The notes below the pieces were generated by a model. It was not told the DNA's origin. It made no database searches and saw nothing but the letters and a program-made list of their open reading frames with translations. Shown piece after piece: positions 21,427 through 28,091 of a stretch of 39,470 bases of DNA. Each line of letters opens with the position of its first letter. Positions within the stretch are counted from its first letter, which is position 1. A program made the position numbers and the translations under genes. This stretch comes from Rhizobiaceae bacterium (lineage in GTDB: Bacteria; Pseudomonadota; Alphaproteobacteria; Rhizobiales; Rhizobiaceae). The stretch lies in contig JAHBYY010000042.1 of the NCBI GenBank assembly GCA_019635715.1, positions 1 through 39,470 on the forward strand, written 5' to 3'.

Positions 21427-21434
21427 GCGCGCCC

Positions 21435-21488
21435 ATGAACGCGAAGCGAATTCTCGTGGTAGGGGTGCGCATGGGCAAGGCGGTGTAA
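21435..21488 (+). CDS. Branched-chain leader peptide of ilvB (attenuation)
   Basis: A 17-codon frame encoding MNAKRILVVGVRMGKAV, with six isoleucine, leucine or valine residues and a control run I-L-V-V-x-V at codons 6-11 (ATT CTC GTG GTA GGG GTG, including codons rare in this GC-rich DNA). It lies between a probable promoter and an intrinsic terminator, all directly ahead of acetolactate synthase, the first enzyme of branched-chain synthesis. Ribosome stalling for lack of charged Ile, Leu or Val tRNA is the expected sensor. No convincing Shine-Dalgarno is seen (AAGG lies 9 bp before the ATG) and the predicted transcript start is within 3 bases of it, so the leader may be leaderless, as known for rhizobial trpL. 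Confidence 0.75.
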   Translation: MNAKRILVVGVRMGKAV

Positions 21489-21516
21489 CCGCCGGGCGAA
21501 ATCCTCCCATGCGCAC
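21465..21516 (+). promoter_or_regulatory. Leader hairpins upstream of ilvB
   Basis: GTGCGCATGGG (21465-21475) and CCCATGCGCAC (21506-21516) are perfect 11-bp complements. Nested in the loop is GGCGGT/ACCGCC (21479-21484/21488-21493), whose loop holds the leader stop codon. GCCCAT (21431-21436, including the leader start) can pair instead with ATGGGC (21471-21476). A ribosome stalled on I-L-V-V would cover the 21465 arm. The arms do not share bases with the terminator stem, so the switching scheme is not the textbook one and is unresolved. Confidence 0.65.
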
Positions 21517-21521
21517 TGAGC

Positions 21522-21546
21522 AGGCTCCCTCCCGGGGGCCTTTTTT
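21522..21546 (+). terminator. Intrinsic terminator (attenuator) before ilvB
   Basis: AGGCTCCC (21522-21529) pairs with GGGGGCCT (21534-21541), one G-U pair, loop TCCC, directly followed by a T run (21541-21546). It lies between the leader peptide and ilvB, 63 bp before the ilvB ATG, so it must be read through for enzyme synthesis. Confidence 0.85.
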
Positions 21547-21608
21547 ATTGCCTTCGATACGCCTAAACGACAGCAGCCCCGCAAGGGGTCGACAACGGGA
21601 CCAGACAG

Positions 21609-23399
21609 ATGAACATCCGAACGAAGAGTGACGGCGGGCCGCGTGAAATGACCGGCGCCGAGATGATCGTCCAGGCGCTGAAGGACAACGGCGTCACGCA
21701 CCTCTTCGGCTATCCCGGCGGAGCCGTCCTGCCGATCTACGACGAACTGTTCCAGCAGGATGAGATCCAGCACATTCTCGTTCGCCACGAGCAGGGCGCC
21801 GGACATGCCGCCGAAGGCTATGCCCGCTCGACCGGCAAGGCCGGCGTCATGCTGGTCACCTCCGGTCCCGGCGCGACCAACGCGGTGACGCCGCTGCAGG
21901 ACGCGCTGATGGATTCCGTCCCGCTCGTCTGCATCACCGGCCAGGTTCCGACCTCGCTGATCGGCTCCGACGCCTTCCAGGAGTGCGACACGGTCGGCAT
22001 CACGCGGCCCTGCACCAAGCACAACTGGCTGGTGAAGGACGTCAACGATCTGTCGCGGATCATCCACGAGGCGTTCCATGTCGCCACCACCGGGCGCCCG
22101 GGGCCGGTCGTCGTCGACGTGCCGAAGGACGTGCAGTTCGCCAGGGGCACCTACACCCCGCCGCAGACCGCGCCGCGCACCAGCTACCAGCCGCGCATGC
22201 AGGGCGATCTGGAGAAGATCCGCGCCGCGATCGCGCTGATGGCCGGGGCGAAGCGCCCGATCATCTATTCGGGCGGCGGCGTCGTCAATTCCGGCCCCGA
22301 GGCCAGCCAGTTGCTGCGCGAACTCGTCGACCTGACCGGCTTCCCGATCACGTCCACCTTGATGGGGCTCGGCGCCTATCCGGCAAGCGGCAAGAACTGG
22401 CTCGGCATGCTCGGCATGCACGGAACCTACGAAGCCAACATGGCGATGCACGACTGCGACGTCATGCTGTGCGTCGGCGCGCGCTTCGACGACCGCATCA
22501 CCGGGCGGCTCACCGCCTTCTCGCCGAACTCGAAGAAGATCCACATCGACATCGATCCGTCGTCGATCAACAAGAACGTGCACGCCGATATCGGCATCCT
22601 CGGCGATGTCGGCCGGGTCCTCGAAGACATGGTCAGGCTGTGGCGCTCCGGCGCCAAGGCCGACAAGAAGGCGCTCTACCCGTGGTGGGAGCAGATCGAG
22701 CGCTGGCGGGCGCGCGACTCGCTCGCCTACAAGCCGAACGCCGACGTGATCATGCCGCAATATGCGATCCAGCGGCTCTACGAGCTGACCAAGGACCGCA
22801 ACACCTACATCACGACCGAGGTCGGCCAGCACCAGATGTGGGCCGCACAGCACTACCATTTCGACAAGCCGAACCGCTGGATGACGTCCGGTGGCCTCGG
22901 CACCATGGGCTACGGCCTGCCGGCGGCGCTCGGCGTGCAGATCGCCCATCCGGACGCGCTGGTCATCGACATCGCCGGCGATGCCTCCGTGCAGATGACC
23001 ATCCAGGAGATGAGCTGCGCCGTGCAGTACGAGGCGCCGATCAAGATCTTCATCCTCAACAACCAGTATATGGGCATGGTCAGGCAGTGGCAGCAGTTGC
23101 TGCACGGCAACCGCCTGTCGCATTCCTACACGGAGGCGATGCCCGACTTCGTGCTGATGGCGCAGGCCTACGGGGCTCACGGCATCCGCTGCGAGAAGCC
23201 GGGCGACCTCGACGACGCGATCAAGGAAATGATCGACGTGAAGAAGCCGGTGCTGTTCGACTGCCGCGTCGCGACGCTGGCCAACTGCTTCCCGATGATC
23301 CCGTCCGGCAAGGCGCACAACGAGATGCTGCTGCCGGACGAGGCGACCGACGAGGCGGTGGCCAACGCCATCGACGCGAAGGGCCGGCAATTGGTGTAG
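21609..23399 (+). CDS. ilvB: Acetolactate synthase large (catalytic) subunit
   Basis: Condenses two pyruvates to acetolactate, or pyruvate with 2-oxobutyrate, the first common step to valine, leucine and isoleucine; ThDP, FAD and Mg dependent. The 596-residue protein has the N-terminal ThDP domain with FGYPGGAVLPIYDEL (33-47) and catalytic Glu61 (in VRHEQGAGH), a central FAD-binding domain, and the C-terminal ThDP/Mg motif from GDASVQM to NNQYMGM (about 457-487). The C-terminal lid region is complete. It is usually written ilvI or ilvB in rhizobia. Expression is probably controlled by the leader peptide and terminator upstream. The small subunit gene ilvH does not follow directly: a toxin-antitoxin pair lies between. 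Confidence 0.97.
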   Translation: MNIRTKSDGGPREMTGAEMIVQALKDNGVTHLFGYPGGAVLPIYDELFQQDEIQHILVRHEQGAGHAAEGYARSTGKAGVMLVTSGPGATNAVTPLQDALMDSVPLVCITGQVPTSLIGSDAFQECDTVGITRPCTKHNWLVKDVNDLSRIIHEAFHVATTGRPGPVVVDVPKDVQFARGTYTPPQTAPRTSYQPRMQGDLEKIRAAIALMAGAKRPIIYSGGGVVNSGPEASQLLRELVDLTGFPITSTLMGLGAYPASGKNWLGMLGMHGTYEANMAMHDCDVMLCVGARFDDRITGRLTAFSPNSKKIHIDIDPSSINKNVHADIGILGDVGRVLEDMVRLWRSGAKADKKALYPWWEQIERWRARDSLAYKPNADVIMPQYAIQRLYELTKDRNTYITTEVGQHQMWAAQHYHFDKPNRWMTSGGLGTMGYGLPAALGVQIAHPDALVIDIAGDASVQMTIQEMSCAVQYEAPIKIFILNNQYMGMVRQWQQLLHGNRLSHSYTEAMPDFVLMAQAYGAHGIRCEKPGDLDDAIKEMIDVKKPVLFDCRVATLANCFPMIPSGKAHNEMLLPDEATDEAVANAIDAKGRQLV

Positions 23400-23405
23400 C
23401 TTGAA

Positions 23406-23446
23406 GTAAGACGCGGTAAGACGTACCTTCTTACTGCGTCTTACCG
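23406..23446. promoter_or_regulatory. Operator-like repeats before the AbrB/PIN pair
   Basis: In the 58 bp between ilvB and the antitoxin gene, GTAAGACG occurs twice in tandem (23406-23413 and 23416-23423) and once inverted as CGTCTTAC (23437-23444). CGGTAAGACG (23414-23423) and CGTCTTACCG (23437-23446) are perfect 10-bp inverted repeats with 13 bp between. This is the layout of an autoregulated toxin-antitoxin operator. The arms could also form an RNA stem at the end of ilvB; there is no U-run. Confidence 0.7.
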
Positions 23447-23457
23447 AGGATTGTCCA

Positions 23458-23742
23458 ATGAATGCGCGGGCCAGGATTTCGAGCAAGGGGCAGTTGGTCG
23501 TACCGAAGGCCGTGCGAGATGCGCATGGCTGGAGTGAAGGTACGGAACTCGAATTCGTCGACAACGGAGACGAAGTCTTCCTCCAACTCGTCAAGAAGGC
23601 TGCGCCGCGATTTCCCAAAACCGATTGGAGCGAGTTCCGCGCATTGAGGATCAAACATGATGGCCCGCCGGTGACCATCGAGGAGATGGATGCGGCGGTC
23701 CTGGAGGAAGCAAGGCGGCGGTGGGATGCGCAAAGCGATTGA
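23458..23742 (+). CDS. AbrB/MazE/SpoVT-type antitoxin
   Basis: 94-residue antitoxin with a swapped-hairpin AbrB DNA-binding domain at residues 3-45: ARISSKGQLVVPKAVRDAHGW then GTELEFV and EVFLQL, the standard order. The C-terminal half (about 55-94) is acidic and helical and should bind and silence the PIN toxin. It likely represses its own transcription through the GTAAGACG repeats just upstream. GAGGA lies 7 bp before the ATG. The last 17 bp overlap the toxin gene, so translation is coupled. By eye its codons are less GC-rich than those of ilvB and ilvH, suggesting later arrival. Confidence 0.88.
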   Translation: MNARARISSKGQLVVPKAVRDAHGWSEGTELEFVDNGDEVFLQLVKKAAPRFPKTDWSEFRALRIKHDGPPVTIEEMDAAVLEEARRRWDAQSD

Positions 23743-24157
23743 TACGAACATCCTGATCCGGGCGATGGTTGACGAAGGTATCGAAGAGAACAAGGTTGCT
23801 TTCGAGGTTCTTTCCACTCAGCCGCTGGCGATATCCGTAACGGTGCTGCTGGAGGCCGAGTGGGTACTTCGAAGTAAATACAAGACTTCCCGAGGCCGTG
23901 TCGCGAATCTGTTCGCTAAGCTGCTCGGAGCGGACAACCTCGACATCGAAGACTATGACGCCGTCGCCGAAGCCTTGGCCGCCCACTCGGAGGGGATGGA
24001 TTTTGCCGATGCCCTGCACGTTTTCAGGTCGCCGCCGAATTGTGATGCCTTTCTGACGTTCGATGGACCATTTCTAAGCTCAGCCCGTCGAATTCCAACA
24101 CCACTGCCGGTCGTGCGACCGTCTTTGCAACTCTCGAAAGATCAGGTTTTCGAATGA
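23726..24157 (+). CDS. PIN-domain toxin (VapC-like ribonuclease)
   Basis: 143-residue PIN-domain protein, expected to be a Mg-dependent endoribonuclease that stops translation by cutting tRNA or other RNA. Acidic active-site residues are visible: Asp6 (in IDTNILIRA), Glu43 (in LLEAEWVLRS), Asp92/Asp95 (in GMDFADALH) and Asp113 (in TFDGPF). All are intact, so it should be active. It overlaps the antitoxin gene by 17 bp. Its TGA stop overlaps the ilvH ATG (ATGA), so ilvH translation depends in part on ribosomes leaving the toxin gene. The C-terminal 25 residues after SSARRI look unrelated to the PIN fold and may derive from the old ilvB-ilvH spacer (inference). Confidence 0.88.
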   Translation: MRKAIDTNILIRAMVDEGIEENKVAFEVLSTQPLAISVTVLLEAEWVLRSKYKTSRGRVANLFAKLLGADNLDIEDYDAVAEALAAHSEGMDFADALHVFRSPPNCDAFLTFDGPFLSSARRIPTPLPVVRPSLQLSKDQVFE

Positions 24158-24726
24158 ACGCCCAGCTTCAGCCGACCGGCTCCGCCTACTTCATCGCCAA
24201 GGAAACCGAACTGCCGATCAGCCACACGCTCTCCGTGCTGGTCGACAACGAGCCGGGTGTGCTGGCGCGCGTCATCGGCCTGTTCTCGGGCCGCGGCTAC
24301 AACATCGAGAGCCTCACCGTCTCCGAGACCGAGCATGAGCGCCACCTGTCGCGCATCACCATCGTGACGCGCGGCACGCCGCATGTCCTGGAGCAGATCA
24401 AGCACCAGCTCGAGCGCATCGTGCCGGTGCATCGCGTGGTCGACCTGTCGGTGCGTGCCAATGAGCTTGGCCAGGAAAAGCCGCTGGCGCGGGAACTGGC
24501 GCTGGTGAAGGTGGCAGGCGCCGGCGAAGCCCGCGTCGAGGCGCTGCGACTGGCCGAGGCATTCCGCGCCAAGGTGATCGACGCCAACACCGAGCATTTC
24601 ATCTTCGAGATCACCGGCGCGGTCGCCAAGATCGAGCAGTTCATCGGCATCATGAAGCCGCTCGGCCTGGTCGAGGTCTGCCGGACCGGCGTCGCCGCGA
24701 TGAATCGCGGCCCGCAGGGGATGTAG
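24154..24726 (+). CDS. ilvH: Acetolactate synthase small (regulatory) subunit
   Basis: Activates the large subunit and gives valine feedback inhibition. The 190-residue protein has the N-terminal ACT domain at about 24-98 (HTLSVLVDNEPGVLARVIGLF with the glycine-rich turn SGRGYNIESLTV) and the ilvH C-terminal domain (ALVKVAGAGEARVEALRLAEAFRAKVIDAN onwards). An N-terminal extension of about 20 residues before the ACT domain is common in alphaproteobacteria. The ATG lies inside the toxin stop, and no separate ribosome site is visible at its expected place, so translation is probably coupled to the toxin gene. The protein itself appears intact. Confidence 0.96.
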   Translation: MNAQLQPTGSAYFIAKETELPISHTLSVLVDNEPGVLARVIGLFSGRGYNIESLTVSETEHERHLSRITIVTRGTPHVLEQIKHQLERIVPVHRVVDLSVRANELGQEKPLARELALVKVAGAGEARVEALRLAEAFRAKVIDANTEHFIFEITGAVAKIEQFIGIMKPLGLVEVCRTGVAAMNRGPQGM

Positions 24727-27412: not shown

Positions 27413-27706
27413 ATGGTCATACACGTTAAAGATGCAGAGACCGACGTGCTGGTCAGAGAACTCGCGCGAATGCGCGGAATTGGCATCACCGATGCCATAA
27501 AGGAAGCGGTTCAGGCGGCAATCGATAGCGACCGAAGGCAGGCGGAGCGGGATCTGGATGCGTCGCTCGAGGAAAGACTCAAGCCGCTGTTCGAAAGGCT
27601 CGATCGACTGCCGCGTCCGCCGTTGAGTACTGATCGCCAATTCTTCGATTCGCTCTGGGCGGATGAAGGATCCAGCTCGAACATGAATGACGGCAATGTT
27701 TCTTGA
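27413..27706 (+). CDS. vapB: VapB-type antitoxin (Rv0623/PSK family)
   Basis: 97-residue antitoxin of the VapB group with the short ribbon-helix-helix N-terminus: VIHVKDAETDVLVRELARMRGIGITDAIKEAVQAAI (strand, then two helices, residues 2-38, key pattern V-K-D...L...T-x-A-x). The remainder is charged and helical, then a loose tail that should wrap the toxin. It overlaps the vapC gene by 20 bp. An AT-rich palindromic region upstream is its likely own operator. The module follows directly on a repeat element and interrupts nothing visible. Confidence 0.88.
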   Translation: MVIHVKDAETDVLVRELARMRGIGITDAIKEAVQAAIDSDRRQAERDLDASLEERLKPLFERLDRLPRPPLSTDRQFFDSLWADEGSSSNMNDGNVS

Positions 27707-28091
27707 TGCTTCGGCGCTTGTCGCCATTTTGGCCAATGAGCCGGAAAGGGGTGCGTTCCTGCGCAAGCTGCAATCGAGCGACAGACGGACGACGTCGGTC
27801 GTTGCCGTGTTCGAGGCTGCCTTGGCGCTCAGTCGGGCGACAGGGAGCTGCGCCGCCGCGCATAGCGAGGTCCAGCGCTTCATGGACATCGCCGGTATCG
27901 TGATCGAGGAAACGCCTGCGTCACTCCTGCCCGAGCTGGCGATTGCCTGGGACCGATATGGAAAGACCAGCGAAAGCGCGGCCAGGTTGAATATGGGAGA
28001 CTGCGTCTCCTACGCCTTCGCGAAGCTGCTCGGGGTTCCTCTGTTGTTCAAGGGCAACGATTTCATTCACACCGATCTCGTCGCGGCGTAG
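27687..28091 (+). CDS. vapC: VapC-type PIN-domain ribonuclease toxin
   Basis: 134-residue PIN-domain toxin. Active-site acids are Asp7 (in FLDASALVAIL), Glu43 (in VAVFEAALAL), Asp105 (in NMGDCVSYAFAK) and Asp125 (in FKGNDFIHTDL), all intact, so an active endoribonuclease is expected, held in check by VapB. ATG 27687 is listed; ATG 27696, three codons in, is equally possible. It resembles the common rhizobial VapC group and differs clearly from the PIN protein at 23726. The RecD-like helicase gene begins 46 bp later. Confidence 0.92.
   Translation: MTAMFLDASALVAILANEPERGAFLRKLQSSDRRTTSVVAVFEAALALSRATGSCAAAHSEVQRFMDIAGIVIEETPASLLPELAIAWDRYGKTSESAARLNMGDCVSYAFAKLLGVPLLFKGNDFIHTDLVAA

Follow-up and report, generated by a model that had tools for sequence, protein, structure and literature searches.

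A VapBC-type toxin–antitoxin pair recurs between ilvB and ilvH in Hyphomicrobiales

Two rhizobial systems offer the closest comparison for the locus described here. VapBC10 of Sinorhizobium meliloti contains a PIN toxin that passages of its description identify as a tRNA anticodon RNase directed at tRNA-Ser (PMC10945364). The pair at our locus resembles it in having a rhizobial PIN toxin, while the tRNA-Ser target belongs to VapBC10, and the term 'ilv' does not occur in the main text of that paper (PMC10945364). In Rhizobium leguminosarum, excerpts of a second study describe the vapBC genes RL3987/RL3988 as an AbrB/PIN pair directly upstream of ruvA and report a requirement for root attachment (PMC11406972). 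What is shared is an AbrB/PIN pair adjoining a housekeeping gene, ruvA, in a relative; the locus is a different one, however, and in those excerpts it is not treated as an exchangeable operon slot (PMC11406972).

With type II VapBC modules that have an AbrB-type antitoxin, the locus shares the overlap of an AbrB/MazE-fold antitoxin gene with a PIN toxin gene, a palindromic operator-like site ahead of the pair and invariant acidic residues. It differs in that this clade was encountered at no site other than the ilvB–ilvH gap, and in having a promoter-like site at the ilvB stop codon. Titles and abstract openings of the openly licensed PMC literature yielded no toxin–antitoxin pair between ilvB and ilvH, an absence that is not proof. 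Our preferred reading, held with somewhat better than even confidence, is that the ilvB–ilvH gap of Hyphomicrobiales houses a VapBC cassette that can be exchanged and regulates itself, and that resides in a core operon where it is co-transcribed with ilvH.

A VapBC-type pair in the window

The window, a 39,470-nt stretch of a Rhizobiaceae genome, carries on its forward strand ilvB, encoding the acetolactate synthase large subunit (21609–23399; NF006581/PRK09107, 1211 bits; three TPP enzyme domains), and ilvH, encoding the small subunit (24154–24726; NF008864/PRK11895, 222 bits; ACT domains). Between them, in the same direction, lie a vapB-like antitoxin gene of MazE/AbrB fold (23458–23742; 94 residues; PF04014 MazE_antitoxin, 40.5 bits; TIGR01439 AbrB, 41.9 bits) and a vapC-like PIN-domain toxin gene (23726–24157; 143 residues; PF01850 PIN, 30.3 bits against a cut-off of 23.6). 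These family matches and coordinates confirm an earlier note, which had read this interval as a complete AbrB antitoxin and PIN toxin, and the overlap it described between the toxin stop (TGA, 24155–24157) and the ilvH start (ATG at 24154), in the form ATGA, is likewise present. The antitoxin and toxin genes overlap by 17 nt in the window; among 43 linked loci, 37 have an overlap of 17 or 20 nt, a locus being called linked when an AbrB/PIN pair occupies its ilvB–ilvH gap. A second pair of another type is found further along the same strand of the window (27413–28076), with a PSK_trans_fac/Rv0623-like antitoxin (27413–27706) and a PIN protein (27696–28076).

Four toxin residues, D6, E43, D95 and D113, are invariant across 13 aligned linked homologues (alignment A1), and we take them to be the catalytic acidic residues of a PIN toxin. 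The AlphaFold model of the toxin has a mean pLDDT of 94.4. Its residues 1–76 superpose well on VapC toxins, and agreement of fold is limited to this part: whole-chain root-mean-square deviation from the VapC chains listed by Foldseek is about 12–14 Å, and just one PDB match reached E ≤ 0.001. For residues 3–76 the nearest solved structure is PcrIIC1 (8wmm), a PIN-like partner of CbCas9 that ranks ahead of classical VapC chains; the likeness is confined to the N-terminal half. The antitoxin profile matched 2glw, 7dvc and SpoVT (2ro5) in the PDB. Searches against NCBIfam assigned the toxin to no family at E ≤ 0.01, PADLOC gave none for either protein at the same threshold (a single library, so that a defence role is still compatible), and PHROGs returned only weak antitoxin-like and unknown families.

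Across nine sister pairs, dN/dS ranged from 0.05 to 0.22 for the antitoxin and from 0.10 to 0.23 for the toxin, values that point to purifying selection on both. By its genes the pair is assigned to the type II VapBC modules, having a PIN toxin, conserved acidic residues and an overlapping upstream antitoxin gene, and its products are predicted to act as an RNase toxin and its antitoxin. One ilv-linked toxin gene (G230, locus L227) contains an internal stop that the copies of its close relatives lack; L227 was left out of the VapBC trees and the 43-locus tallies.

Recurrence at one address

IlvB and IlvH each gave a single match in nearly all relatives (E ≤ 1e-200 and E ≤ 1e-30, respectively). 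Among 151 relatives surveyed, 139 genomes have ilvB ahead of ilvH on the same contig and strand; these were kept from 146, with five dropped because their ilvB and ilvH hits did not share a contig and strand, and two for want of an ilvB hit. The gap is at most 243 nt long in 97 of the 139 and 732–782 nt in 16. Fifteen of these 16, the window included, hold the AbrB/PIN pair, and the sixteenth holds a glutathione S-transferase (GST) gene. One further genome (G089) has the pair together with an EamA-like gene, its ilvB hit being on another contig.

The earlier note proposed searching related genomes for PIN/AbrB inserts between the two genes, and such a search proved positive. A toxin profile built from the 13 linked copies of A1 gave 72 matches in 62 of 394 family genomes at E ≤ 1e-20. 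Every one of the 30 best falls in the ilvB–ilvH gap, 13 being members of the profile and 17 not. From the other 42 matches, 40 loci were fetched and seven proved linked; linkage of the last two had been established before. In total, 39 of the 394 genomes carry the pair in the gap in the same direction, and 33 matches are unlinked. Among the best 80 of 534 relatives in a named collection, at least ten are linked: Mesorhizobium sp. L-8-3, Root554 and J18, Mesorhizobium ephedrae (now Kumtagia ephedrae), Aquibium sp. ELW1220, Rhizobium sp. PP-CC-3A-592, Ferranicluibacter rubi, a Phreatobacter assembly and two Rhizobiales isolates. Order-wide, 18 of 397 genomes match the profile at E ≤ 1e-32; beyond the window, the pair lies between ilvB and ilvH in four genomes of one genus (probably Phreatobacter), is in place with about 690 nt extra before ilvH in one genome of another family, and adjoins ilvB in one genome of a third family, where ilvH falls outside the fetched stretch.

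A chance insertion or misassembly peculiar to a single genome could be suspected from the G+C content of the insert (about 57%, against 63–70% in most flanking segments) and from the state of the window's assembly (151 contigs, 85% complete). The recurrence of the same arrangement in 38 other family genomes rules this out for practical purposes, as do the linked loci among the best 80 named relatives, one of which, in Mesorhizobium sp. L-8-3, lies in a record titled as a complete chromosome; we regard such an artefact as vanishingly improbable. As to the choice posed earlier between chance and selected linkage, a clade held at the same site argues against chance, physiological benefit being a separate question.

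The pair is not the only occupant of the gap. Genes of EamA, GST, PALP-enzyme and DUF559 families were confirmed there by Pfam, one example each, so the gap appears to accept guests in general. Ten of the 28 genomes with other or additional gap content show an ATGA overlap between ilvH and the putative open reading frame selected there by length. By eye, EamA-like transporter genes recur in about 12 of these 28 genomes (L090–L110), often as the last gene before ilvH, and their product is possibly an amino acid exporter belonging to the operon.

A comparable address exists at another locus. Some unlinked toxins follow a RuvA-like and precede a RuvB-like gene, an assignment backed by RuvA and RuvB family searches. 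In 52 family genomes with ruvA and ruvB in order, the spacing is 1395–1531 nt in 18, at most 900 nt in 30 and intermediate in four. Eight of the 18 long gaps were read, the window genome's among them, and all eight contain an antitoxin-like and a PIN-like reading frame; five of the proteins, from three genomes, were confirmed by Pfam. In the window genome this AbrB/PIN pair lies on contig C64 at about 113800–115800 (L308). The ilv pair is present in 7 of the 18 genomes with a long ruv gap and in 2 of the 34 others (Fisher p 0.005, with kinship ignored). Still other PIN toxins adjoin different genes (L153, L164, L144, L238, L257, L258 and L261), the neighbours being presumably tldD/pmbA-like (six loci), guaA-like (four, upstream) and clpS-like (three).

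Such company suits a purely selfish resident, which would sit in a tolerant gap of an always-needed operon and be kept by addiction or spread with no link to branched-chain synthesis. Both the EamA, GST, PALP and DUF559 guests and the pair between ruvA and ruvB speak for it, while the frequent absence of the pair from close kin argues against strong addiction. We give this possibility a little under even chances; it shares its anatomy with the exchangeable cassette, does not exclude it, and differs on benefit alone.

Candidate regulatory sequences around the pair

The ilv operon is preceded by a match to the Rfam family RF02502 (Atu_C8) on the forward strand at 21434–21557 (cmscan, 95.1 bits; gathering threshold 50). 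Within it, at 21435–21488 on the same strand ahead of ilvB, is a leader reading frame of 17 residues, MNAKRILVVGVRMGKAV, with consecutive Ile-Leu-Val-Val codons. A leader with branched-chain codons upstream of the operon, as the earlier note supposed, is thus borne out, and the element fits an attenuator, attenuation being suggested by the codons and the family match. Of 11 relatives' loci searched, nine have the Atu_C8 leader, and two of these nine (L111 and L112) have no toxin–antitoxin pair; the two exceptions, L116 and L117, have the pair yet no Atu_C8 match. A literature search for the Atu_C8 leader found nothing. On the forward strand, no terminator-like site was detected in 23300–24250, which includes the interval between ilvB and the antitoxin gene, and read-through from the ilv promoter into the pair is therefore possible.

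Directly after the ilvB stop lies a promoter-like pair, TTGAAG-N17-TACCTT (23401–23429, forward strand), whose −10 element is weak and which a simple promoter scan did not list. It is overlapped by an inverted repeat between ilvB and the antitoxin gene, GTAAGACGCGGTAAGA / TCTTACTGCGTCTTAC (23406–23444), with 16-nt arms that are 94% complementary, a probable, putative operator for the antitoxin. We wrote the pattern TTGW-N2-N17-TA-N3-K after looking at the sequences; upstream of the antitoxin gene, 30 of 43 linked loci contain it, where shuffling predicts 0.5, as do 7 of 77 unlinked loci, where 1.2 are predicted. A promoter-like pattern starts between −4 and +9 nt from the ilvB stop in 31 of the 43 linked loci, a count that does not represent independent events because the loci are related; in 16 of these 31 the ilvB stop codon lies inside the −35 box, and in the other 12 linked loci no such pattern is present at the stop. 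GTAAG/CTTAC repeats precede the antitoxin gene in 25 of 43 linked loci (missing in 18), in 71 of 77 unlinked loci and in none of seven empty spacers. From these counts, the operator-like repeat appears to be a feature of the wider VapBC group, and the position of the promoter to be specific to this locus.

The promoter-like pair and operator-like palindrome at the ilvB stop, seen in 31 of 43 loci, suggest that the pair has its own autoregulated start. Under the preferred cassette reading, the insert would carry its own promoter overlapped by a palindromic operator; the antitoxin would probably bind the palindrome, so that the pair is probably regulated through its own promoter and keeps its own transcription in check. 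RNA started at this promoter would run into ilvH, as would read-through from the attenuated ilv promoter.

An alternative account makes toxin production part of the output of the branched-chain operon: the attenuator would be relieved when Ile, Leu or Val runs short, toxin and enzyme would rise together, and ilvH would need translation of the toxin gene. The Atu_C8 leader with its branched-chain codons, the lack of a terminator-like site on the forward strand in 23300–24250, and the ATGA overlap in the window and three other linked loci are all in keeping with it. Against it stand the promoter- and operator-like sequences that follow the ilvB stop codon in 31 of 43 loci, which leave the claim that toxin level is tied to the ilv attenuator without support as it was worded, and the missing ATGA overlap in 39 of 43. 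The antitoxin, moreover, is in one unit with the toxin, so that read-through would raise both. We consider this account unlikely, as is control by the ilv attenuator alone, with starvation-coupled toxin production possible as a minor input.

The same tally divides the idea that ilvH translation is tied to the toxin. It holds in the window, where the ATGA overlap makes it probable that ilvH is also translated by coupling to the toxin gene; it does not carry across the clade. The distance from toxin stop to ilvH start is −4 nt (ATGA) in just 4 of 43 linked loci and 11–48 nt in 37. Of the other two, one has 4 nt, its start being uncertain, and one has 963 nt and another gene between. Translational coupling therefore appears to be the exception. 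An independent ilvH promoter inside the toxin gene had been named as evidence against such coupling; the promoter-like site found lies ahead of the antitoxin gene and not within the toxin.

Clade, patchy presence and allele disagreement

The relationships of the pairs were examined in a quick tree from joined VapB and VapC alignments of 43 linked and 77 unlinked loci, built without duplicate loci of one genome; unlinked hits with low scores or no detectable antitoxin match were left out of all VapBC trees. Forty-one linked pairs form one clade (SH-aLRT 98), and two Phreatobacter copies fall elsewhere. A separate second capture in Phreatobacter was considered and not upheld (p-AU 0.345), the single-clade tree scoring higher with more loci. 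With five linked loci added from across the order, giving 48 linked and 88 unlinked rows (L161 and L319 in this set being probably one genome), the free tree needs five label changes, with weak support around the new rows; a tree holding all 48 linked pairs together has a likelihood 11.1 log units above the free search (p-AU 0.647). The 48 pairs span four families of the order, and a single origin of all of them is compatible with these trees, not proven.

Presence is patchy on the host phylogeny. On an IlvB+IlvH tree of 99 genomes (40 carriers and 59 non-carriers, the latter drawn from many available), the presence of the pair takes 24 changes to explain, of which well-supported branches force 15, and is slightly clustered (3 or 4 of 500 shuffles as low). 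This pattern does not support the suggestion that the position makes the module hard to lose.

The alleles in part disagree with their hosts. The correlation between VapBC and IlvBH distances across 38 linked genomes is weak (Spearman 0.33; none of 2000 permutations reached this value), and the history thus appears vertical in part. The sister species G088 and G286 differ by 0.02 in IlvBH and by 2.08 in VapBC; G156 and G289 differ by 0.018 and 1.45, and the window genome and G003, of one genus, by 0.20 and 2.18. The reverse case is G003 and G233, with an IlvBH distance of 0.36 and a VapBC distance of 0.19. Since sister species with near-identical IlvBH carry very different pairs, the slot seems to have been emptied, filled and swapped.

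The cassette is proposed to replace the spacer that otherwise runs from the stop codon of ilvB to the start codon of ilvH. In eight of nine carrier/empty pairs compared by eye, no spacer of the empty sister could be recognised at the insert ends; G355 and G023 have about 17 nt of spacer next to ilvH in common, so not every cassette replaces the whole spacer. A profile search of 86 pair-free spacer loci (some genomes represented twice) for vapBC remnants gave one chance-level hit (E 0.5). In 16 pairs and six same-allele controls, a search of ilvB and ilvH for donor tracts revealed neither a recombination breakpoint nor a consistent fall in identity toward the insert. Over the final 100 nt of ilvB, identity between G088 and G286 drops to 83%; that between the window and its congeners is 77–83% in the first 100 nt of ilvH, other pairs being unremarkable. 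Many pairs, the controls among them, have low identity in the fourth 100-nt block of ilvH.

These data bear on a strictly vertical history, in which one ancient insertion was followed by many losses and very fast divergence, with no horizontal exchange. The compatibility of all linked copies with one origin, the weak but significant distance correlation and the lack of a consistent donor tract in the flanks agree with such a course. VapBC distances of 1.45 to 2.08 at an IlvBH distance of 0.02 are nevertheless hard to reach by mutation alone, some copies are nearer to each other than their hosts are (G003/G233), and the 86 pair-free spacers yielded no decaying remnants. We judge a purely vertical history improbable. 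In the preferred cassette reading, insert alleles would be gained, lost and swapped among relatives by recombination in the conserved 3′ end of ilvB and 5′ end of ilvH. Homologous recombination through these gene ends is the simplest account we can infer, and it would explain how one clade keeps a constant place yet disagrees with the host tree.

A more far-reaching synthesis is doubtful as a whole. The gap would be a dedicated allele-exchange slot in Hyphomicrobiales, with an obligately resident VapBC clade swapped like an immunity cassette, and the self-repressed promoter would give a second, stress-responsive supply of IlvH. Were the toxins to cleave tRNAs for Ile, Leu or Val, feedback on the leader would tie growth arrest to branched-chain synthesis, and the ruvA–ruvB gap would be a second such slot.

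The module is of a known kind at an unusually fixed, exchangeable address, and the arrangement is real and recurrent. Toxin–antitoxin pairs are usually portrayed as mobile elements of patchy distribution (PMC2701414). Here, one clade holds a single address in a core-enzyme operon across four families of an order, with its alleles turning over fast. Sister species with the pair, without it and with different alleles at a near-identical locus are already in sequence collections, and this fixed address with fast allele turnover makes the persistence of chromosomal modules directly testable.
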